The notes under the pieces were generated by a model. That model worked only from the letters and a program-made list of their open reading frames with translations, was not told the DNA's origin and made no database searches. 64,000 nt of DNA from Tenuifilum sp. 4138str. GTDB lineage: Bacteria; Bacteroidota; Bacteroidia; Bacteroidales; Tenuifilaceae. The position numbers and the translations under genes are program-made. The number at the start of each line of letters is the position of its first letter. Positions within the stretch are counted from its first letter, which is position 1. The stretch lies in assembly GCF_041102575.1 (NCBI RefSeq), contig NZ_JBGCUE010000007.1, positions 62,001-126,000 on the forward strand, written 5' to 3'. Shown in pieces: positions 43,907 to 53,886 of the stretch.

Positions 43907-44188
43907 TTAGTTTGATGCAATGGTAGCGCTAAGCCCTCGGCGATGCAACTCGTTCATCATACCCTCAAGCATTTCAAATTCACCATGCTTAATATCGCAC
44001 TTACCTTTGAAATGGGTAATAAGGGCGCATTGCTCTGCCTGATGAGGATCGTGGTTACAAACCTCAACCAACGTATCAATTACAAAATCAAAGGTGTTAA
44101 CATCGTCGTTGTGAAGGATTAAAATGTACTCAAGTTCTGCCGAAGGCAGAAGTTTTCCTTTACCTTGAACCTTTTCCTTAACTGCCAT
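43907..44188 (-). CDS. clpS: ATP-dependent Clp protease adaptor ClpS
   Basis: 93 aa adaptor that delivers N-degron substrates to ClpA/ClpC. The substrate-pocket block YILILHNDDVNTFDFVIDTL is followed by HPHQAEQ-like DPHQAEQCALITHFKGKCDI and a C-terminal helix pair. ATG at 44188. First gene of the clpS-nfeD-floA group on the minus strand. Confidence 0.93.
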   Translation of the reverse strand: MAVKEKVQGKGKLLPSAELEYILILHNDDVNTFDFVIDTLVEVCNHDPHQAEQCALITHFKGKCDIKHGEFEMLEGMMNELHRRGLSATIASN

Positions 44189-44223
44189 ATCACGTAAACA
44201 TTTAATAGGCTAATATAGCTATT

Positions 44224-47013
44224 TTATGGTGTAATATCAATAACAACCGCCTTGAGCATTCCGCTTGCAATCAGATTTTCCTTTACGCGGTTGGCCTCAT
44301 CGATACTGTTAAAATTTCCAATGATGTAAATGTGATCGCCATTGGAATCAACCTTACGGGATAGCTCCTTTCCCTGCGAGAGGTTTCGAACAGTATTGAT
44401 TTCCGAGTCGGTTAAAGGGGTTTTGTATCGTCCTACTTCTACTATGTACAAGCGGTTGTCAGTCTTTGACGGTTGAATCTGCTGTACTGCGTCCTCAAGT
44501 TGCTGAGCGCGTTGGGTTGTAATACGTGTCCCGTTGAGCCAGGCCACGATAAAAGCATCTTTGAAGCCCTTTTGCTTAACTGTAGCAAGCACCTTTTCCG
44601 CATCGGAGTAGCGGGTAAGGTTACCAATGTAGTAGCGAATGATGTTTCCGGTTTTATATCCGTAAACAGGAACCATACCCTTAAAGAATGAAGGTTTTTG
44701 TGGGGTGCTGAAAGCGCCAATCTGAATACGATAGATTACCCCACTGGGAAGTGGTTCATCAATGGGTATTGGCTTTTCGTCGGAATAGTAGGGTTTATCG
44801 GTAACGCCAAAGTCAGCGGGTATTTCGTCAATTATGGCAATGATTGGTGTGGCCTGTTTAATGGCCGGTTCACTTTTTAGCTTAGGGATGTCTACTGCAA
44901 CCTCTTCCACGGTTTTGGTAGGTTTGGGTTCCTCCTGAGCTAGGTTTAGGCTTGATTGGCCAAAAATATTTCTTTCAAGCTTAATGACATTGCTTAGCAG
45001 CTGTTGTTCCATGAGGCGTAATCGCCAAATTTTTGCAAAGGCAAGGTCAAGCTGCATTAACCCTAAGTTCCTTAAGAGTGAGGCTTCAAAAACGCTTTCA
45101 ACCTGGCCGGTTGAATCGAGGTTGTTAAGAATGGCCACTGCGGCCCTAAAGTTGTTTTGGGCATCGGTGGTTAGCTTTCGAACTTCGGTATCGCGGTTAC
45201 CGCTTTTTACACGGGCCACTTCAATGCAATCGGAGTAAATTTGATATTTTTTATCCCAATACTTTTTAAAATGGTCGGAGTATTGTTTCATGGCTGCAAC
45301 CAGCTGATTATATTCAGCTGCGCAAGCATTGTTATTGTTGTCATTAGCTGAGAGGCATCTATTGTAGGCCTCCCTCCTCTCAAGGGCTGAATTTCTGAAA
45401 CGGGTAAGCTGTGGTGTTAACTTTTCGGCTTCGGCAAGTTTATTGATTTCGTCGGTGCGGAAAACGGTTGAGGCAAACTGTGCCTGATAGATAAAATCGG
45501 GGTTATCGGCAACAAACGAGGTGTTGCTTTCGTCCTTTGGTTTGCGCTTCCCGGTAAGGTATTCCTGTTCAATTTGGCTGGCACGGGCAAAAAGCAAATC
45601 GGCTTCCTTTTGGGCGGCAAGCATATCATCCTCAACCTTGGTTACCTGCTTTTCAAGCCTAACTCGCTGCTCGGCTGTAGTTACATAATCGAAACGGCCT
45701 CGCAAGTCCTCTAACTTAATTTTAAGCGAATCGGCAAGTTTTTGTGCAGCAAAGCCTTTGGCTAAAACACGACTATACTCGGGGTCGTTTTCTACGGAGT
45801 TGAACTTTGCCGGCTTTTTATTCTCAGCGGCTTCAGCCTTAGGTTTATCGGCTTCAACTTTTGAACTGGGTGCTTTAGGTGAGACACTAGGTTTTGACTC
45901 AAGAGGATTAAGCCTTGCTATTGAGAGCAATTCCTTGTAGCTGTTTGGAGTGCGTCGGGTAGGGTTGATGTCGTTTCGGATAAGGAAAACATTTAATGTA
46001 TCGGGCATGCTTAGTCGGTTCGAGGTAAAGCATGCAAGTGTGTCGTTGTTACCAGTTAGGAATAAAAAATCATCGTACGTTGAGTTTACCGGAAAGCCTA
46101 AATTCTCAGGGGTACTCCACTGCTTTTTATCGGGGTTATAAACCGATTTGTAAATATCGTAGCCACCCATTCCGTAATGTCCCTTCGATGCAAAGTAAAG
46201 GGTAACGCCATCGGGCATAATAAATGGGTACTCCTCGTTCAACGAGGAATTGATAATATCGCCTAAATTCTCGGGCTTGCTCCACTTCCCGTTATCAAGT
46301 AGTTGAATGCGGAAAATATCGGTACCCCACGATGTAGACTTGCCATAGCTGGAGTAGTAAAGGTAATCGCCGGGTTTAATATTCTTGGGGTAAAACATTA
46401 CAGTGGTGTAACCCATTTGCTTGTCGGTGGCAGTGCGAAGGTTTTCGGGGACTGGAGTAAAAGAACCTTCGGGCAATAGCGATGAGTAGTAGTTCAGAAA
46501 GTTACTGGGGCTAGCCTGTTTTCGGTCGAAAACAGTTGGGCTATAAACGTAACGGGTAAGGAAAGAGCCGTTCTCACATACAGTTACAAGTTTTTCAACT
46601 TCATCGAGTTTAATGTCGGGCGATCCTCCACTTACAACAAATCGGCGGTAGTAGTCAATGGCTTCGTTAAACTGGTACGACTGTCGCAAGGCTTCGGCAA
46701 GATAAAAGTAAACCATTGTATTGAGATCGGAAGTTGATGCATCCTTCAGGTATTTCAGCGCCATCTCTACATCTCTTGTCCCTTTAAGGTAACATACACC
46801 CAATGCATACTTTATTTCAGGATCGCGGGGAAATTGGTCAAGTAGTTCCTTGTATTTAGGGATTGCCTTAGCGTAACTTTTTGCATTTAGTAATGAGTCA
46901 GCCATAGCTCTCTGCATACCTCCGCTTTTTACTCCGATGCTATCTACCTGACACCACGATGAAACTGATGAAAAGAAAAATGGGAGTAAGGCTATAATTT
47001 TCAACAACTTCAT
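44224..47013 (-). CDS. Large exported TPR/PD40 protein with C-terminal SPOR-like domains
   Basis: 929 aa. A signal peptide is followed by TPR repeats (about residues 30-145; AKAIPKYKELLDQFPRDPEIKYALG), PD40/WD40-type beta repeats (about 200-345; YPFIMPDGVTLYFASKGHYGMGGYDIY), a long charged helical region (about 400-690) and two SPOR-like modules in the last 190 residues (YRIQIGAFS... and LYIVEVGRY...). SPOR domains bind denuded septal or sacculus glycan. The N-terminal layout is like that of PorE-type type IX/envelope proteins, which end in OmpA-like domains; here SPOR replaces it. Divergent from the PqqD operon. Confidence 0.8.
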   Translation of the reverse strand: MKLLKIIALLPFFFSSVSSWCQVDSIGVKSGGMQRAMADSLLNAKSYAKAIPKYKELLDQFPRDPEIKYALGVCYLKGTRDVEMALKYLKDASTSDLNTMVYFYLAEALRQSYQFNEAIDYYRRFVVSGGSPDIKLDEVEKLVTVCENGSFLTRYVYSPTVFDRKQASPSNFLNYYSSLLPEGSFTPVPENLRTATDKQMGYTTVMFYPKNIKPGDYLYYSSYGKSTSWGTDIFRIQLLDNGKWSKPENLGDIINSSLNEEYPFIMPDGVTLYFASKGHYGMGGYDIYKSVYNPDKKQWSTPENLGFPVNSTYDDFLFLTGNNDTLACFTSNRLSMPDTLNVFLIRNDINPTRRTPNSYKELLSIARLNPLESKPSVSPKAPSSKVEADKPKAEAAENKKPAKFNSVENDPEYSRVLAKGFAAQKLADSLKIKLEDLRGRFDYVTTAEQRVRLEKQVTKVEDDMLAAQKEADLLFARASQIEQEYLTGKRKPKDESNTSFVADNPDFIYQAQFASTVFRTDEINKLAEAEKLTPQLTRFRNSALERREAYNRCLSANDNNNNACAAEYNQLVAAMKQYSDHFKKYWDKKYQIYSDCIEVARVKSGNRDTEVRKLTTDAQNNFRAAVAILNNLDSTGQVESVFEASLLRNLGLMQLDLAFAKIWRLRLMEQQLLSNVIKLERNIFGQSSLNLAQEEPKPTKTVEEVAVDIPKLKSEPAIKQATPIIAIIDEIPADFGVTDKPYYSDEKPIPIDEPLPSGVIYRIQIGAFSTPQKPSFFKGMVPVYGYKTGNIIRYYIGNLTRYSDAEKVLATVKQKGFKDAFIVAWLNGTRITTQRAQQLEDAVQQIQPSKTDNRLYIVEVGRYKTPLTDSEINTVRNLSQGKELSRKVDSNGDHIYIIGNFNSIDEANRVKENLIASGMLKAVVIDITP

Positions 47014-47155: not shown

Positions 47156-47401
47156 ATGAAAGTAAATCAAAGCATAGCTATAAGCGAGAACGGGTTTATA
47201 TTCAACCCAATTACAGGAGACACATTCACACTTAACGATTCTGGCTTTCAAATTTTAACAATGCTAAAATCCGGAAAATCGCAAGATGAAATTAAGGATA
47301 AGTTGCTTTCAGAGTATGAAGTTGACGAGTTAGTCCTGGAAAGGTATTTACAGGATTTTATTAGCGATTTAAAGCGGAATAATTTACTACTTGAGGAGTA
47401 G
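47156..47401 (+). CDS. PqqD-like protein
   Basis: 81 aa. The pattern matches the PqqD/HPr-kinase-associated fold: a beta-rich start (ISENGFIFNPITGDTFTLNDSGFQIL) followed by helices (GKSQDEIKDKLLSEYEVDE...DFISDLKRNNLL). PqqD proteins bind leader peptides or partner enzymes in peptide-modifying pathways; no radical SAM enzyme or obvious precursor peptide is near. The C-terminus is Glu-Glu. It is the first gene of a six-gene plus-strand operon, followed by the ATP-grasp gene after 4 bp. A peptide-chaperone role is family knowledge; a role as an amino-acid carrier would be speculation. Confidence 0.85.
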   Translation: MKVNQSIAISENGFIFNPITGDTFTLNDSGFQILTMLKSGKSQDEIKDKLLSEYEVDELVLERYLQDFISDLKRNNLLLEE

Positions 47402-47405
47402 GGCT

Positions 47406-48452
47406 ATGGAACGTAAAAGAATAACAATAGCCATTACCGGCCTAAATAATATTGATAGTCCGGGGCCTGGTATGCCTGTAATTAGAGGCATAAAAGAGTC
47501 AACTGACTTTGATGCCAGAATAGTTGGGTTGGCATACGATCATCTAGAACCCGGAATCTACATGAAGGAATGGGTAGATAAAACCTACATGATTCCATAC
47601 CCCTCGAAAGGAAAAGAGGCTTTATTTGAAAGAATCAAGGAAATCAATGCTAAAGAAAACATCGATCTGATAATTCCCAACTTTGATGCCGAACTTTTCT
47701 CGTTTATTAAGCTTGAAAATCAAATTAATCAGCTTGGTATTAAAACATTTCTTCCTACCCTGGAGCAGTTTGAGGAGCGGCATAAATCAAGCTTGCCAGA
47801 GTACGGTAAAAAGTATGGCGTAAATGTTCCAAAAAGCGAAGAGGCTTACAGTATGAATGACCTTGCAAATGTTTTACGTTCATACACTTACCCGGTAATG
47901 GTAAAGGGAAAATATTATGATGCCTACAAGGCATACTCTCAGGAACAGGCTCAAGCCTATTTTTCAAAGGTGTCAGCTAAGTGGGGGTATCCTGTAATTG
48001 TGCAGGAATTTGTTGAAGGAACCGAAGTGAACGTAATTACCCTTGGCGATGGGAATGGGCAGGTGATTTCAGCAGTTGCCATGCGTAAGCAGTATATTAC
48101 AGACAAAGGCAAAGCCTGGGGAGGGGTAACCATCTCGGACGATTCAATGCTTGAGCTAACTCATAAAATCATTTCACAAACAAAGTGGAGGGGTGGCATG
48201 GAGCTGGAGCTTATTCGTACAGCCGATAACAAGCTATATATCCTTGAAATAAATCCTCGAATTCCGGCTTGGGTTTACCTTGCTGTTGGAGCCGGACAAA
48301 ATTTACCCGAAGCATTAGTAAAACTTGCCATGGGAATGGATGTTAAGCCCTACACATCTTACGAAATTGGGAAAATGTTTATCCGTTACTCATGGGATAT
48401 GATAGTAGATATTGACATGTTTTCAAAGCTGGTAACCAGTGGAGAATTGTAA
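47406..48452 (+). CDS. ATP-grasp ligase
   Basis: 348 aa ATP-grasp enzyme of the carboxylate-amine ligase type, related in layout to carbamoyl-phosphate synthase large-subunit domains. There is an N-terminal Rossmann-like part (ITIAITGLNNIDSPGPGMPVI), central ATP-binding strands (YPVMVKGKYYDAYKAYS, VIVQEFVEGTEVNVI) and the Mg-binding ELELIRTADNKLYILEINPRIPAW. The ATG at 47406 follows a good Shine-Dalgarno sequence (AGGAG). Such enzymes form amide bonds by acyl phosphates; the substrates are unknown. 20 bp before the PLP enzyme gene. Confidence 0.88.
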   Translation: MERKRITIAITGLNNIDSPGPGMPVIRGIKESTDFDARIVGLAYDHLEPGIYMKEWVDKTYMIPYPSKGKEALFERIKEINAKENIDLIIPNFDAELFSFIKLENQINQLGIKTFLPTLEQFEERHKSSLPEYGKKYGVNVPKSEEAYSMNDLANVLRSYTYPVMVKGKYYDAYKAYSQEQAQAYFSKVSAKWGYPVIVQEFVEGTEVNVITLGDGNGQVISAVAMRKQYITDKGKAWGGVTISDDSMLELTHKIISQTKWRGGMELELIRTADNKLYILEINPRIPAWVYLAVGAGQNLPEALVKLAMGMDVKPYTSYEIGKMFIRYSWDMIVDIDMFSKLVTSGEL

Positions 48453-48472
48453 AATACTAAAAGGTTAAACCA

Positions 48473-49819
48473 ATGGAAAAGAAAAATTTTGAACGTCCAA
48501 CCATCACAAAGCTAACGCCCGGAATTCCCTCAAAGCATGGCGTAGGCATTGCAGTAGCACCTGTGCAATTTATTGATGGTTTAAAAGTTGACGAACTAAT
48601 TGAAAAGTATGGCTCCCCACTTTATATCTTTTCGGAATCAGTAATTCGCAAAAATGTTAATGATTTAAAACGCGCATTTAGCGTGCGTTACCCCAAAGTG
48701 CAAGTTGCTTGGAGCTATAAAACTAACTACCTGGATGCCATTTGCAGGATTTTTCATCAGGAAGGATCATGGGCCGAAGTGGTTTCGGGATTTGAATACG
48801 AAAAGGCTCGACTTAATGGCATTCCCGGTGAACATATTATTTTTAACGGCCCCGGAAAAACAGAGGCCGAACTTTTAAGGGCAGCCAAGGAGGGTGCTTA
48901 CATTCACATTGATCATTTCGATGAGCTTTTCCTTCTTGCAAAGGTATGTCAAGCCAATAGTGTTAATGCCCGGGTTGCTATTAGGGTCAACATGGATGTA
49001 GGTATTTACCCCAAATGGGATAGGTTTGGGTTTAACTTTGAAAATGGCGAGGCTTGGGACGCAATTAACAGAATAATGGCAAATCCACAGCTTAAGTTAA
49101 TGGGTTTGCACACCCATATCGGAACATATATAATGACAACCGATGCATACCGCATTGCTGCTGCAAAGCTGTCGGAACTAGCGGCCAGTATTGCGCAAAA
49201 GTTTAACCATTACATAGCATATATCGATATGGGTGGTGGTTTTGCATCGCGTAACACCCTGCGAGGTGCATACCTTTCCGGTGAAGATACAACCCCCTCG
49301 TTCGATGAGTATGCTGATGCCATAACCTCAGCAATTATCAACTCACAAATTAAACCCGATAAATTACCCACTGTAATTCTTGAAACAGGGAGAGCATTAA
49401 TTGACGATGCCGGAAGTATAGCAGGTACAGTTATAGCAAATAAACGGCTTACCGATGGACGCAGGGCCTTAATTGTAGATGTTGGTGTTAACTTACTTTT
49501 TACATCGTTTTGGTACGACCACAAGATAAATCCTACACAGTCTCATTCGGGCTTAGTTGAGGAAACCGTAATATATGGCCCTCTCTGTATGAATATTGAC
49601 GTATTACGTCCATCAATTATGTTTCCTCCCTTGAAAACAGGTGAGCACTTTTTGATATCCCGAACGGGTGCTTACAATAACACGCAGTGGTTACAGTTTA
49701 TTACCACCAGACCTAACGTTATACTAATTGATACTAACCGAAAAACACATATTATTCGTAAAGCTGAGAGCATTGATAGCATTGTTTCAAATGAGAATAT
49801 TCCAGATCACCTAAAGTAA
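48473..49819 (+). CDS. LysA-like PLP-dependent (fold III) decarboxylase
   Basis: 448 aa, alanine-racemase-fold decarboxylase of the diaminopimelate/ornithine decarboxylase family. The key residues are present: PLP lysine K83 (WSYKTNY), HTHIG (213-217), phosphate loop GGG (254-256), ETGR (304-307) and the active-site Cys372 in GPLCMNID. The C372 motif and TGR suggest action on a D-centre or amino acid such as diaminopimelate or a related ligated substrate. It sits between the ATP-grasp gene and the transporter fusion, so a biosynthetic role in a small product is more likely than housekeeping lysine synthesis. Confidence 0.87.
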   Translation: MEKKNFERPTITKLTPGIPSKHGVGIAVAPVQFIDGLKVDELIEKYGSPLYIFSESVIRKNVNDLKRAFSVRYPKVQVAWSYKTNYLDAICRIFHQEGSWAEVVSGFEYEKARLNGIPGEHIIFNGPGKTEAELLRAAKEGAYIHIDHFDELFLLAKVCQANSVNARVAIRVNMDVGIYPKWDRFGFNFENGEAWDAINRIMANPQLKLMGLHTHIGTYIMTTDAYRIAAAKLSELAASIAQKFNHYIAYIDMGGGFASRNTLRGAYLSGEDTTPSFDEYADAITSAIINSQIKPDKLPTVILETGRALIDDAGSIAGTVIANKRLTDGRRALIVDVGVNLLFTSFWYDHKINPTQSHSGLVEETVIYGPLCMNIDVLRPSIMFPPLKTGEHFLISRTGAYNNTQWLQFITTRPNVILIDTNRKTHIIRKAESIDSIVSNENIPDHLK

Positions 49820-49838
49820 ACCATCAGCATACTTGTTT

Positions 49839-52013
49839 ATGAGAGCGATAAATGGATTAAATACAATCATTAAGGGACTAATCAGGAGTTACTCGCAAAT
49901 CTTTTTTTCAAGCGAATACTCTTTAGCCATTTTTTTGTTACTCATAACGTTTATCGATTTTTCGATTGGGATTGCTGGGTTGGTTTCAGCATTAGTAGCC
50001 ACACTTACATCTTATCTGATAAAACTTGATAGGGAAACAACCGCTAAGGGTTTATATGGTTTTAATGCTTTACTGGTTGGATTTGGGTTAGGATTTTACT
50101 ATGATATTAGCATTACACTTCTGCTTTTGGCTGCCATTGCCGGATTTTTTACATTACTTGTTAATATTACACTACAGGGAGTTTTAGGAAAGTACTACTT
50201 ACCTTACCTATCGCTTCCATTTGTGTTAAGCATGTGGCTAGTGCTAAGTGCTACCTGGCAGCTGACGTCAACCGAAATAAATCAGAGTAGTGTCTACCTA
50301 CTCAATAGAATTTTTGATGTTGGAGGTTTTAATTTTATTGACATTCACGACTGGTGGCTTAACCATGTAAAATCCAATTTTATTAATGGTTATTTTATAT
50401 CGTTGGGCTCAATATTCTTTCAGTTTAATGTGCTAGCCGGGGTTTTGGTAGCATTGATATTGATGGCATACTCACGAATTGCATTTTCGTTATCGGTTAT
50501 TGGGTATAGCGTGGCTTATATTGCCTATTTAACTTTTGGTCTAGATTTGACTACGTTGGGGTATAGCTATATTGGGTTTAATTTTATTCTTAGCGCAATT
50601 GCCATTGGTGGGTATTACTATATACCCTCAACGGCTTCCTACTGGTGGGCTGTGGCCATTACACCTGTAATTGCAATGGTAACTATTGGGCTAGCAATTA
50701 TTTTTAAAACGCTTGGCTTGCCAATCCTTTCGCTACCCTTTAATATTGTTGTACTTATGTTTATTTACTCCATGCGTTTTAGGATGTCGGTTTCTGGGTT
50801 AAGGGAGGTGATGGTGCAGGAAGGGAAACCCGAACTAAATCTTTACTCCTATCAATCGTTTGCTAAACGTTTTCCTAACTATGGGTGGATTAGGATTAGG
50901 TTACCCTTTTACGGAGTTTGGACCGTAAATCAAGGTCATCATGGCAATTATACTCACAAAGGGGAGTGGGCGCATGCATGGGATTTCATTGTTTTAGACT
51001 CCGATGGTAAACAGTTTAAAAGTGATGGTCATTTACAAACCGATTATTACTGTTACGGGAAAAATGTAATTGCTCCTGCCGATGGCGAAGTGGTTGAGGT
51101 TGACGACGGTGTTGATGATAATCCTGTAGGTGAAATAAATATTAATAAGAATTGGGGGAATACCGTAATAATTAAGCATGCAGCTGGTTTGTATTCCAAA
51201 CTTTCGCACCTCAGAAAGGGATCAATTACCGTTAAGGTTGGCGATAAAGTAAAGTTTGGAACAAAAGTAGGCGAGGTTGGCAATTCAGGGCGTTCAGCTT
51301 ACCCCCACCTCCATTTTCAGATTCAGGCAACCGAGTACATTGGCTCAAAAACCATTAAATACCCATTATCATCATACATTGTTAATGATACTGAACTCAA
51401 AACATTCGATTATCCCGCTACTGACCAAAATGTTTGCAATATTGAATCTGATCCATTGCTTAATTCCATGCTAAACTTTAAACCTGGCAAGTTGATTAGT
51501 TGGGAAGTTCAACATGAAAATATTACTGAAAATTTTACTTGGGAAGTGGGTATTACCTATTTAAATAAGCTATTTATAAAGTGCAACAAAACAAATTCTA
51601 AAGCATTCTTTGAGCTTGATGATGTGTATTTCTACTTTACCCATTTTGAGGGAAGTAAAAAATCACTGTTATACAAATTTTACCTTGCTGCATATAGGAT
51701 ACCCTTAACCTATTTTGAAGGGATAAAGGTAGCTGATTCAATACCCGCAAATAAATGGTTTGGTGGAATAGCTCTTTACCTCCATGATTTTATTGCGCCA
51801 TTCATTCAATTATTGCAAGCTGAATACAGGGTAAAGGTTACAAGAATTGGAAGCGAATTTGACATCGAAGGTTTTAGGTTCGAAACCACCGTTGAGGGCA
51901 GATTTCTAAATAGAACTGTTCTAACAGAACGATTTGATTTAGAAATTCGTGCAAACGGTAAAGTAGAAATTATTCAGGAACAAAATAACACCCTTGCGAA
52001 ATGCGAACTATAA
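49839..52013 (+). CDS. Urea-transporter-like channel fused to an M23 metallopeptidase domain
   Basis: 724 aa. Residues about 20-315 form a polytopic membrane domain with both halves of the urea transporter family: GLYGFNALLVG and the mirrored GFNFILSAIAIGG. A soluble part follows with an M23/LytM-like metal site: HAWDF (His379/Asp382), then about 110 residues later PHLHF (His490/His492), with the usual GDKVKFGTKVGEVGNSG block. A C-terminal region of about 200 residues (from 515) is unassigned. The ATG at 49839 is preferred over an in-frame TTG 6 bp upstream. The channel would pass a small polar solute; the peptidase part probably faces the periplasm. Confidence 0.85.
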   Translation: MRAINGLNTIIKGLIRSYSQIFFSSEYSLAIFLLLITFIDFSIGIAGLVSALVATLTSYLIKLDRETTAKGLYGFNALLVGFGLGFYYDISITLLLLAAIAGFFTLLVNITLQGVLGKYYLPYLSLPFVLSMWLVLSATWQLTSTEINQSSVYLLNRIFDVGGFNFIDIHDWWLNHVKSNFINGYFISLGSIFFQFNVLAGVLVALILMAYSRIAFSLSVIGYSVAYIAYLTFGLDLTTLGYSYIGFNFILSAIAIGGYYYIPSTASYWWAVAITPVIAMVTIGLAIIFKTLGLPILSLPFNIVVLMFIYSMRFRMSVSGLREVMVQEGKPELNLYSYQSFAKRFPNYGWIRIRLPFYGVWTVNQGHHGNYTHKGEWAHAWDFIVLDSDGKQFKSDGHLQTDYYCYGKNVIAPADGEVVEVDDGVDDNPVGEININKNWGNTVIIKHAAGLYSKLSHLRKGSITVKVGDKVKFGTKVGEVGNSGRSAYPHLHFQIQATEYIGSKTIKYPLSSYIVNDTELKTFDYPATDQNVCNIESDPLLNSMLNFKPGKLISWEVQHENITENFTWEVGITYLNKLFIKCNKTNSKAFFELDDVYFYFTHFEGSKKSLLYKFYLAAYRIPLTYFEGIKVADSIPANKWFGGIALYLHDFIAPFIQLLQAEYRVKVTRIGSEFDIEGFRFETTVEGRFLNRTVLTERFDLEIRANGKVEIIQEQNNTLAKCEL

Positions 52014-53269
52014 TTGTTATTGCCTCAGTTTTGGTGTTAACCTACAGGCTAGGTGCACAAACCGATTTTGCATCGCTTGATAGGTTAAACTATCAATATT
52101 TCCTTGGCAAGGATTATAAGAATTTAAAAAGGACTGCCAAAGAAATTTTAAATCAGGGGAATGATTACTATTACCTAAGGATGAGGTTAGGTATTTTGGC
52201 CTATGAAAATCAAAGGTATGCCTATGCGTATAGAAATTTTACTCGCGCTAAACAGCAAAACCCTTTCGATACTTTAACAAACGAATATTTGTACTATTGC
52301 TACCTTTTGGCAGGCAGGCAGGCTAATGCACTCCAATTTCTCCGCACCCTTTCCGAGAATGATAAAAATAGTCATTTAAAGTCCGTACCCATGGCTAAGG
52401 CTCCTGAACTAATATTAAGCTATTCATATACAGGATACGATGTCAAAAAATATCAAACCAACCCCTTAAACTTTGAGGCCATTGAAAATCTGGCCGTATT
52501 AAATGCAGGGTTAACTTTCAATTTTTCAGAAAGGGCTAACGGTTTTTTCCAGTACTCAAATACCAGAAAAGTAGCTACTTTTTACTCACCCTCCGATCCC
52601 TCAGGCAATTACGATACATACAAACAAAATCAATTTTATTTTAGTTACAAAAGCCTAATTACTCAAGGTTTTGAGTTTTCAGGGTATACCCACTGGGTAT
52701 TTTTTACCGATGTGTCGAACGTTTCTACTTATGGGCGCAGGAGTTCTTCCATAAATTTATCAACCGAATCGTTATTTGGATTAAACTTTACATTAATAGG
52801 TTGGTATCTGAGAGGGGGTATAAATTTCAACTACAGCAACTTTGCAAATTCAAACCAGTTTGCTACGGAGGCTTACATCACCTATTTGCCTTTTTCAAAT
52901 TTAAACCTGTATTCAACGGTTAGTGGTTTTTACCAATTTGATAAAAACTGGGGAAGTACTTATCAGTCGAATTTTGATGTTGGTTTCAAAGTATTTAAAT
53001 ATTTATGGGTTGAATCCGGGATGATGATTGGCAATTCTTTCTTGTATTCACGTAATTTAGGCACGGAGCTGTACAACTCATTTATCATTCCTTCTAAAAG
53101 TTTTTATGGTAGTATAGTTATCCCTGCTAAAAAGTTTTCTTTAAGGGTTGGTGGTCATTACTCTGAGATAAACAACTATTCCTGGGATTTGGTGAATTAT
53201 ACTAAAACATCAAAGCTAGTACTTAATGCATTTGGAGTAAATGCTACATTAACCATTAAATTTCAATAG
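52001..53269 (+). CDS. Outer-membrane beta-barrel protein with N-terminal TPR (YaiO-like)
   Basis: 422 aa. A signal peptide (cleaved near residue 19, LGAQ) is followed by TPR-like repeats to about residue 125 (YLRMRLGILAYENQRYAYAYRNF) and then many amphipathic strands rich in aromatic residues (FFQYSNTRKVATFY, LYSTVSGFYQFDKNWG), ending in LTIKFQ with the C-terminal aromatic pattern of outer-membrane proteins. The layout is that of YaiO-type barrels. It overlaps the transporter fusion by 13 bp and is 2 bp from the next gene. Confidence 0.8.
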   Translation: MRTIIVIASVLVLTYRLGAQTDFASLDRLNYQYFLGKDYKNLKRTAKEILNQGNDYYYLRMRLGILAYENQRYAYAYRNFTRAKQQNPFDTLTNEYLYYCYLLAGRQANALQFLRTLSENDKNSHLKSVPMAKAPELILSYSYTGYDVKKYQTNPLNFEAIENLAVLNAGLTFNFSERANGFFQYSNTRKVATFYSPSDPSGNYDTYKQNQFYFSYKSLITQGFEFSGYTHWVFFTDVSNVSTYGRRSSSINLSTESLFGLNFTLIGWYLRGGINFNYSNFANSNQFATEAYITYLPFSNLNLYSTVSGFYQFDKNWGSTYQSNFDVGFKVFKYLWVESGMMIGNSFLYSRNLGTELYNSFIIPSKSFYGSIVIPAKKFSLRVGGHYSEINNYSWDLVNYTKTSKLVLNAFGVNATLTIKFQ

Positions 53270-53271
53270 CT

Positions 53272-53886
53272 ATGAAGGTCAAAAATCTAATCTTAATGGT
53301 GCTGACAACAATGTCGGTAAACTTAGCGGCTCAGGATTTTGCTAAACTATCAGTAGCATTCACTGAAAGCTATGCTAAGGAAAAGGAAGGCAAGTATGCC
53401 GATGCTGCAAAACCCCTAAAGGCCATGTACGATGAAAAATCGTATGAGGTTAATTTAAGGTTGGGATGGTTAACATACCTGCAAGGTCAATTTAGCGAAT
53501 CGGTAGGCTACTACTCAAAAGCTATAGAGCTTATGCCCTATGCCATTGAACCCCGATTGGGAATTGTACTCCCCGCATCAGCAATGGGTAATTGGGGTTC
53601 AGTAGTTGAGCAGTATAACAAGATACTTTCCATTGACCCTAATAATACCCTTGTGTTGTATCGAATGGGTATGATAAGCTATGAGAATAAGGATTTTAAA
53701 AAGGCTTACACTTACTTTGAAAAGGTAGTAAATCTATACCCCTTTGACTATTACAGCGTGCTAATGCTGGGTTGGACTAATTACCAGTTAGGGAAAACAA
53801 AGGAAGCCAAGATACTTTTCCAAAAGGCATTACTTTACGACCCTACAAGCGCAAGCGCTAAGGAGGGATTAAGCTTACTGAAATAG
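53272..53886 (+). CDS. Exported TPR protein
   Basis: 204 aa: a signal peptide (MKVKNLILMVLTTMSVNLAAQ) and about five tetratricopeptide repeats (GKYADAAKPLKAMYDEKSY, GQFSESVGYYSKAIELMPYA, NNTLVLYRMGMISYENKDFKKAYTYFEKVVNLYPFD). TPRs usually mediate protein contacts, here probably with the barrel protein encoded 2 bp upstream, which has TPRs of its own. Last gene of the PqqD operon; smpB lies convergent 18 bp on. Confidence 0.87.
   Translation: MKVKNLILMVLTTMSVNLAAQDFAKLSVAFTESYAKEKEGKYADAAKPLKAMYDEKSYEVNLRLGWLTYLQGQFSESVGYYSKAIELMPYAIEPRLGIVLPASAMGNWGSVVEQYNKILSIDPNNTLVLYRMGMISYENKDFKKAYTYFEKVVNLYPFDYYSVLMLGWTNYQLGKTKEAKILFQKALLYDPTSASAKEGLSLLK

Follow-up and report, generated by a model that had tools for sequence, protein, structure and literature searches.

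Organization of the operon

The DNA stretch analysed here comprises 64,000 nucleotides of Tenuifilum sp. 4138str (assembly GCF_041102575.1, contig NZ_JBGCUE010000007.1, positions 62,001 to 126,000 of the forward strand) and is referred to below as the window, with positions counted from its first letter. It carries a six-gene operon in which a small PqqD-like protein very probably grips the N-terminal tail of the decarboxylase encoded two genes downstream. An earlier reading of the sequence (hereafter, the original prediction) had described six tightly packed genes at 47156–53886, with spacings from a 13-bp overlap to a 20-bp gap, and both were reproduced by calling and translation of open reading frames (ORFs): the six ORFs are co-directional on the plus strand and separated, in gene order, by +4, +20, +19, −13, and +2 bp.

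The proteins were assigned to families with Pfam and NCBIfam profiles. The first gene (47156–47401) encodes an 81-aa PqqD-like stand-alone RRE (recognition element of ribosomally synthesized and post-translationally modified peptides, RiPPs; PF05402, 2.4e-11). It also exceeds the PqqD_rel_X cut-off (TIGR04353, 36.7 vs 35 bits), the family of the HPr-rel-A system, whose partner, judging by the system's name, is presumably an HprK-related kinase; no such kinase was matched among the six proteins, and no genome-wide search for it was made. The next genes encode an ATP-grasp ligase of 348 aa (47406–48452; PF15632, 1.1e-11), a pyridoxal phosphate-dependent decarboxylase of 448 aa with the alanine racemase fold, LysA/FslC-type, with a predicted FslC/FigC-type pocket (48473–49819; PF02784, 5.8e-29), and a 724-aa fusion of a urea transporter (UT) domain with an M23 peptidase domain (UT-M23; 49839–52013; UT, PF03253, 5.4e-58; M23, 1.7e-18). 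They are followed by an outer-membrane protein with an N-terminal TPR domain and a FadL/CymA/OmpG-like barrel, according to its predicted structure and a structure search (52001–53269), and by a TPR protein whose N-terminus looks signal peptide-like by eye (53272–53886; PF07719, 1.5e-22). The set had been held to be without earlier description, and literature searches for combinations of PqqD/RRE, ATP-grasp, decarboxylase, urea transporter, and M23 found no paper describing it, subscription journals lying mostly outside their coverage.

Distribution in Bacteroidota

The ATP-grasp gene (E ≤ 1e-30) was found in 23 of 247 genomes of the phylum, and the UT-M23 fusion in the identical 23 genomes (divided into two ORFs in G005), which represent 13 families with a patchy distribution within genera. 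In all 22 sampled loci, the window itself excluded, the PqqD, ATP-grasp, decarboxylase, and UT-M23 genes follow each other in this order on one strand. Of these loci, 21 had the TPR protein, and eight had a fifth-protein homologue at the threshold used (nine by clustering). Conservation of the gene set beyond close relatives, on which the original prediction depended, was thus observed, and the operon is a conserved unit rather than a local oddity; as to the proposed order of all six families, it held for the first four, but the complete set was found in only 8/22 loci.

Additionally, among 80 loci on GTDB contigs, 71 had the first four genes in order and 58 the full set of six, a locus cut off by the end of its contig being scored as a miss; these are the best 80 of at least 565 relatives and therefore lean to close ones. 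With a stricter threshold (E ≤ 1e-60), 76 of the 395 genomes sampled from the class and 154 of the 393 from the order had the ATP-grasp gene; from the genomes with a match, 120 chosen regions were retrieved in addition to 59 automatic loci. According to the record titles, many carriers belong to Bacteroidota known only from metagenome assemblies.

Tail of the decarboxylase as the probable ligand of the RRE

The nearest solved relatives of the PqqD-like protein in a profile search of the PDB were the lasso-peptide RREs TbiB1 (5v1u, 1.2e-12) and TfuB1 (6jx3, 3.7e-9), with PqqD itself at 1.3e-3. Discrete RREs of lasso systems recognise the motif [Y/W]xxPx[L/V/I/F/A], as stated in excerpts of one source (PMC13381572), and a recognition group W/Y/LxxP/L/I is given in excerpts of another (PMC12710340). 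A scan for a motif close to these classes, [Y/F]xxPx[I/V/L], found the RRE recognition-like sequence FERPTI (48488–48505) within the leader-like N-terminal tail formed by residues 1–33 of the decarboxylase itself (48473–48571). The motif was present in 96/96 decarboxylases of a first set (22 from the phylum sample and 74 of the 79 from contig loci, 440–480 aa without X), and its distance to the core was exactly 41 residues in 87 of them and 43 in 2, the core pattern being unmatched in 7. A second set, in which 178 loci gave 175 PqqD-like proteins and 170 decarboxylases, contained the motif in 170/170, 166 by scan and 4 on inspection; the tails missed by the scan ran over N (L251), lay in a broken frame (L161 and L191), or were too far from the frame start (L247).

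When a profile of the tail was run over the 22 cassette genomes, the sole match with E < 0.01 in each genome (22/22) was the decarboxylase, an unlike leader being beyond the reach of such a profile; the next best match was a 32-codon frame with E 0.014. The decarboxylase's own N-terminal tail is the one putative ligand of the RRE detectable in these sequences. A different function of the PqqD-like protein, that of a carrier acting through a conserved C-terminus, was considered and rejected, the C-terminus not being conserved.

Covariation of the tail with the RRE

In the crystal structure of LppB with its leader, Asp70 forms a hydrogen bond with the leader Tyr (PMC13381572, in excerpts). In our alignment this position is model column 67, four residues before a conserved Phe, and it is occupied by Asp in TbiB1, TfuB1, LppB, and PqqD and by Gln in PbaB1. 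In the window it is Tyr64 (47345–47347), paired with a tail that begins its motif with Phe. Across 102 loci (103 with PqqD less L107, a contig without decarboxylase), a Tyr tail was accompanied by Asp or Asn at column 67 in 52/52 cases and a Phe tail by neither in 50/50, and this pair ranked first of the 38,052 PqqD × decarboxylase column pairs (z 15.6). Ranks 2 and 3 also lie in the tail; the third-ranked pair, column 56 of PqqD (47156–47401) with tail column 5 of the decarboxylase (48473–48571), marks a possible second RRE–tail contact.

The second set (163 loci) behaved alike, with Asp 127, Asn 9, and His 2 for Tyr tails and Tyr 14, Ser 7, and Ala 4 for Phe tails. After removal of identical ATP-grasps, the 265 pairs were reduced to 252 loci: the 185 with a Tyr tail had Asp 163, Asn 20, and His 2 at column 67, and the 67 with a Phe tail had Tyr 48, Ser 12, Ala 5, His 1, and Phe 1, so that Asp/Asn stood in 183/185 of the former vs 0/67 of the latter. 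Shared ancestry was controlled for by using each of 720 columns from the PqqD, ATP-grasp, and decarboxylase alignments as a predictor of the residue in the tail; column 67 gave one error in 252 loci, and the next best column gave 29. Mapped on the tree of the ATP-grasps, this residue switches seven times, and five or six of the switches are shared by column 67, depending on how His is classed. For L287 and L315, whose PqqD lay beyond the stretch first taken, the residue predicted beforehand was found, namely Asp in the locus with a Tyr tail and Tyr in the one with a Phe tail; the supposition that their PqqD genes stand elsewhere in the genome was rejected, both being located a short way upstream, outside the first 900 bp or at their margin.

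Decarboxylase and ligase

The decarboxylase retains Lys83, His213, the Gly-rich loop, Glu304, Arg307, Cys372, and Tyr401, and the intact active site first read from the single sequence was borne out by this alignment. Its description as LysA-like stood in part, for family kinship but not for specificity: it scores 219 with the LysA profile TIGR01048 (cut-off 297.9), and Thr344, Trp347, Met373, and Ile375 take the places of Arg, Leu, Glu, and Thr in LysA of the same genome, giving an FslC/FigC-type pocket. By alignment, Thr344 (49502–49504) replaces the Arg of LysA that holds the distal carboxylate, and Met373 (49589–49591), beside the catalytic Cys372, replaces a Glu; in LysA this Arg and Glu bind the distal end of diaminopimelate. 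Both replacing residues were invariant in 22/22 decarboxylases, and among those of the GTDB contigs the motif GPLCMNID was kept in 74/74 and the motif T..WY/F in 72/74. According to excerpts of a study of FigC, its Thr327, Thr330, and Tyr331 together with Met355 belong to a pocket accommodating a diamino acid with an acylated side chain, docking places His357 near the citryl group, and the FigC/SbnH/BtrK clade is held to serve specialised metabolites (PMC7857480). The position of FigC His357 and SbnH Lys347 corresponds to Ile375 in the window decarboxylase; this replacement of the citryl-facing residue makes a neutral conjugate, rather than a citrate conjugate, the likely substrate.

In the ATP-grasp ligase, E266, E268, E281, and N283, which we take to be the metal/ATP residues, were invariant in 22 sequences. 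Matches to PylC and MfnD were weak and far below the respective cut-offs; they may hint at side-chain amides as the product.

On the Streptomyces zaomyceticus plasmid NZ_CP108525, relatives of the ATP-grasp ligase and decarboxylase (29% and 22% identity, with the CM motif kept) are joined in one 758-aa chain, and no PqqD-like frame was present in the 16.9 kb around it, so this covalent fusion, a single case, would fit an adaptor role for PqqD. Unlike the operon decarboxylases, the chain has no YxxP tail by eye, and neither UT-M23 nor the barrel is annotated there. The gene after the fusion (L148:10271-10855) has a Cys-His-Asp pattern like that of transglutaminase-type proteases by eye and matched nothing in Pfam or NCBIfam. 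An apparent fusion of the same two enzymes in Bacteroidota (L251) was rejected because the reading frame is continuous only across a stretch of N.

The absence of a radical SAM enzyme, exporter, and precursor peptide noted at the outset was upheld. Pfam and NCBIfam gave no radical SAM, YcaO, lanthipeptide, or lasso enzyme and no exporter among the six proteins, the ATP-grasp ligase being a kind of enzyme that can modify peptides, and a precursor was not detected in dedicated scans. Besides the tail profile, these included a survey of 893 small ORFs of 15–110 codons in 103 upstream and 80 downstream stretches; no widely shared ORF was found near the 103 loci, and the 12 largest groups, which were listed, consisted of PqqD starts, 3′ ends of AraC genes, or families confined to at most four loci.

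Channel–peptidase fusion and outer-membrane barrel

Three parts are distinguished in the UT-M23 protein: a channel domain of UT fold (49875–50768), whose model superimposes on the Desulfovibrio vulgaris UT with a template modelling (TM) score of 0.83–0.89 on target; an M23/LytM metallopeptidase domain (50901–51383), recognised by profile and model; and a C-terminal beta-rich domain (51396–52010), defined from the model and without a fold match in the whole-model search. Among the matches listed, that search returned only UT, M23-type, and one phage-internal protein. His373, Asp382, His457, His490, and His492 of the M23 domain, presumably the zinc/catalytic residues, were invariant in 21 and in 59 aligned sequences. 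The channel departs from UT/Yut in its score (119, cut-off 274.6), in its fusion to M23, and, in alignment rows inspected by eye, in the outer-site Glu, replaced in operon channels by Ala, Ser, Leu, Ile, or Phe; for this Glu we assume the numbering Glu187 of the urea transporter.

The sidedness of the fusion was estimated from the mean number of Lys and Arg in the UT loops of 59 sequences. It was 2.7 at the N-terminus, 2.3 after helix 2, and 3.8 following the final helix; three other loops on that side averaged about 1.0, and four short loops on the opposite side 0.0–0.07. The long inter-repeat loop on the opposite side carries 2.6 Lys + Arg but 4.3 Asp + Glu, and the loops at 22–28 and 291–299 have 0.9 and 0.2. 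This pattern, combined with the topology of urea transporters, places the M23 domain on the cytosolic side in prediction, and peptidoglycan would therefore be an unlikely substrate. No paper on a urea transporter joined to M23 was found in the literature searched. To our knowledge, a cytosolic metallopeptidase attached to a urea-channel fold would be without precedent.

Pfam gave no match for the fifth protein, whose AlphaFold model (predicted local distance difference test, 93.7) consists of a TPR domain and an outer-membrane barrel, the nearest structures to which, among the matches listed, were the FadL, CymD/TodX, CymA, and OmpG channels (Z 18–20; root mean square deviation 3.0–5.1). As modelled, the barrel is closest to small-molecule channels, and these matches leave room for other barrel families.

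Operon forms and neighbouring genes

Since all six genes are present in only part of the loci, the operon exists in two forms or more, the six-gene form and another in which the fifth gene is replaced. In 9 of the 13 loci without a fifth-gene homologue by clustering, a 272–309-aa protein of a different family adjoins the TPR gene; it is barrel-like by eye, and the one scanned had no Pfam match over the cut-off. In seven of these 13 loci a protein of 279–292 aa is encoded directly upstream of PqqD; the single representative scanned belongs to the FG-GAP proteins and carries a type IX sorting tail. In L064, L082, and L084 only PqqD, ATP-grasp, and decarboxylase stand in a row; that these genomes lack UT-M23 was considered and rejected, the gene lying elsewhere in them (on the same contig in L084).

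Insertions were also seen. A gene for an isomerase-like protein of the IF-2B/MtnA type stands between decarboxylase and UT-M23 in L121:12438-13391 (by Pfam) and in L104:12511-13455 and L132:5039-5785 (by eye). A DUF4405 membrane protein is encoded between PqqD and ATP-grasp in L066:7090-7920, where the upstream gene encodes a DUF2202-like lipoprotein that clusters with DUF2202 proteins. In L142:4343-5845 a PKD-domain protein lies between UT-M23 and the barrel gene, the cassette of this genome being split in two. L051 and L054 (G124) are copies of the same cassette at the two ends of a contig and probably reflect an overlap in the assembly; one UT-M23 copy is interrupted by a stop.

Upstream of the operon, 64 of 71 ORFs were scanned and gave AraC regulators in 23/64 and DUF2202 proteins in 5/64; in L086:9041-9616 and 19 further loci the AraC regulators have, by eye, an HMA-like N-terminus with a variably lost Cys pair. 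A conserved downstream partner was sought and not seen, the 46 of 50 neighbours scanned being of mixed families, five with a Por secretion tail. In the window, the minus strand on the divergent side of the operon (43907–47013) carries a ClpS-like adaptor gene and, beside it, the gene for a 929-aa PD40/SPOR-like protein (by eye).

Discussion

The operon probably encodes a small set of biosynthetic enzymes linked to transport across both membranes. The PqqD-like RRE very probably binds the leader-like tail of the decarboxylase, a contact with strong backing from the sequences, and the enzyme would thereby be docked to a partner as a non-covalent fusion; that the other side of the docking is the ATP-grasp ligase seems reasonably probable. 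The ligase would couple a carboxylate to the amine in the side chain of a diamino acid or a related compound, and the decarboxylase would then remove the alpha-carboxyl of the conjugate, as FslC/FigC and SbnH do with citryl-amino acids. By this analogy the product would be a molecule of N-acyl-amine type, a proposal to which we give an even chance. The UT-fold channel with its cytosolic M23 domain may pass the molecule, perhaps after trimming, across the inner membrane, and the FadL-like barrel, with TPR assistance, across the outer one; passage over both membranes is the least certain step and is put forward tentatively, at somewhat less than an even chance, and outward transport appears moderately more plausible than inward transport. 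Taken as a whole, a precursor-free RRE turned enzyme adaptor, clipping the decarboxylase to the ligase in a phylum-wide, envelope-spanning small-amine pathway with a cytosolic M23 domain on a UT-fold pore, has in our estimation slightly better than an even chance of being correct. Of the original prediction, the docking protein, ligase, and decarboxylase are retained, and its two suggestions for the product, passage through both membranes or sensing, both stay plausible; what changes is the docking ligand, which appears to be the decarboxylase tail, the specificity of the decarboxylase, and the predicted placement of M23 in the cytosol.

Several observations weigh against this reading. Phe as the first motif residue falls outside the motif classes given in the excerpts of PMC13381572 and PMC12710340. 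The co-change of tail and column 67 is phylogenetically shallow, resting on only seven tail changes; the supported branches give only two to three independent pairs, none contrary, too few for a sign test; a further column among 505, number 201 of the decarboxylase with 11 changes, has five in common as well; and column 67 covaries with ATP-grasp columns (z up to 12.8), which is at least partly clade background. In addition, the decarboxylase scores only 227 bits with the FslC family (cut-off 500), the Streptomyces fusion is a single case, and the cytosolic location of M23 is only predicted and depends on the topology of urea transporters.

The resemblance to lasso systems raises a RiPP-like pathway, in which the RRE serves a precursor encoded elsewhere, the decarboxylase tail is a built-in leader occupying or activating the RRE, the ligase and decarboxylase modify the peptide, and M23 trims it. 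The RRE fold, the nearly identical leader motif, the best sequence match, and the Asp that contacts the leader Tyr (in TbiB1, TfuB1, and LppB) are all shared with the lasso RREs (TbiB1, TfuB1, LppB/PbaB1), the peptidase domain keeps its residues intact in the 59 aligned proteins, and the related decarboxylases BtrK and MccE act on carrier- or peptide-borne substrates (PMC7857480, in excerpts). The operon differs from the lasso systems in bearing the motif on an enzyme instead of a precursor, in part with Phe in first place, and in that none of its six proteins matches a lasso cyclase or B2 protein. Against a RiPP-like pathway, neither a second leader copy in the 22 genomes (another leader type being possible) nor a widely conserved small ORF nearby was detected, and no PqqD was found near the Streptomyces fusion; we regard such a pathway as unlikely. 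Hardly more probable is a siderophore- or metallophore-type pathway, with the ATP-grasp ligase replacing the synthetase of the nonribosomal peptide synthetase-independent siderophore (NIS) pathways and the barrel and channel exporting or importing a metal-binding product. It would account for the FslC-type pocket and for the frequent upstream AraC genes, many with the HMA-like N-terminus, and DUF2202 genes, and the operon shares with the rhizoferrin and staphyloferrin B pathways (FslA-FslC, SbnH) the conjugation of an amino acid followed by decarboxylation and, with FigC, the Thr/Met pocket. At the same time, the operon differs from these pathways in having an ATP-grasp ligase where none of the six proteins matches an NIS synthetase, in its RRE docking, and in the Ile at the citryl-facing position (for FigC, as placed in the docked model); no TonB-dependent receptor is among the six proteins, the neighbours vary, and the link to metal is through the regulators only.

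A role in muropeptide or envelope recycling, with wall peptides religated, diaminopimelate decarboxylated, and M23 cutting, would agree with the M23/LytM family membership and the LysA kinship of the decarboxylase, but the charge pattern puts M23 in the cytosol, the residues for diaminopimelate specificity are lost, and the distribution is patchy, so that we consider this highly improbable. For the preferred adaptor reading, butirosin biosynthesis offers a parallel, in which the alanine racemase-fold decarboxylase BtrK acts in series with the small protein BtrI (PMC7857480, in excerpts), with the difference that the small protein is an acyl carrier there and an RRE here. The proposed series of ligase and decarboxylase may also be compared with the known enzymes of that pathway. 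BtrJ, which works in series with BtrK, is an ATP-grasp ligase.

The use of an RRE as an adaptor for the tail of an enzyme was not found described in the literature searched. In genome mining, RRE and PqqD domains are used as a flag that points to natural products of peptide type (PMC12710340, in excerpts). In the group marked by this ATP-grasp ligase, which reaches 154 of 393 genomes of the order, the ligand of the RRE appears to be an enzyme, and such a flag would therefore mislead; the docking logic thus exposed would be new. The operon also provides a candidate pathway of Bacteroidota, a residue-level switch in which a tail Tyr goes with Asp or Asn at column 67 and a tail Phe with Tyr, Ser, or Ala, and a prediction of the class of metabolite that may be made.

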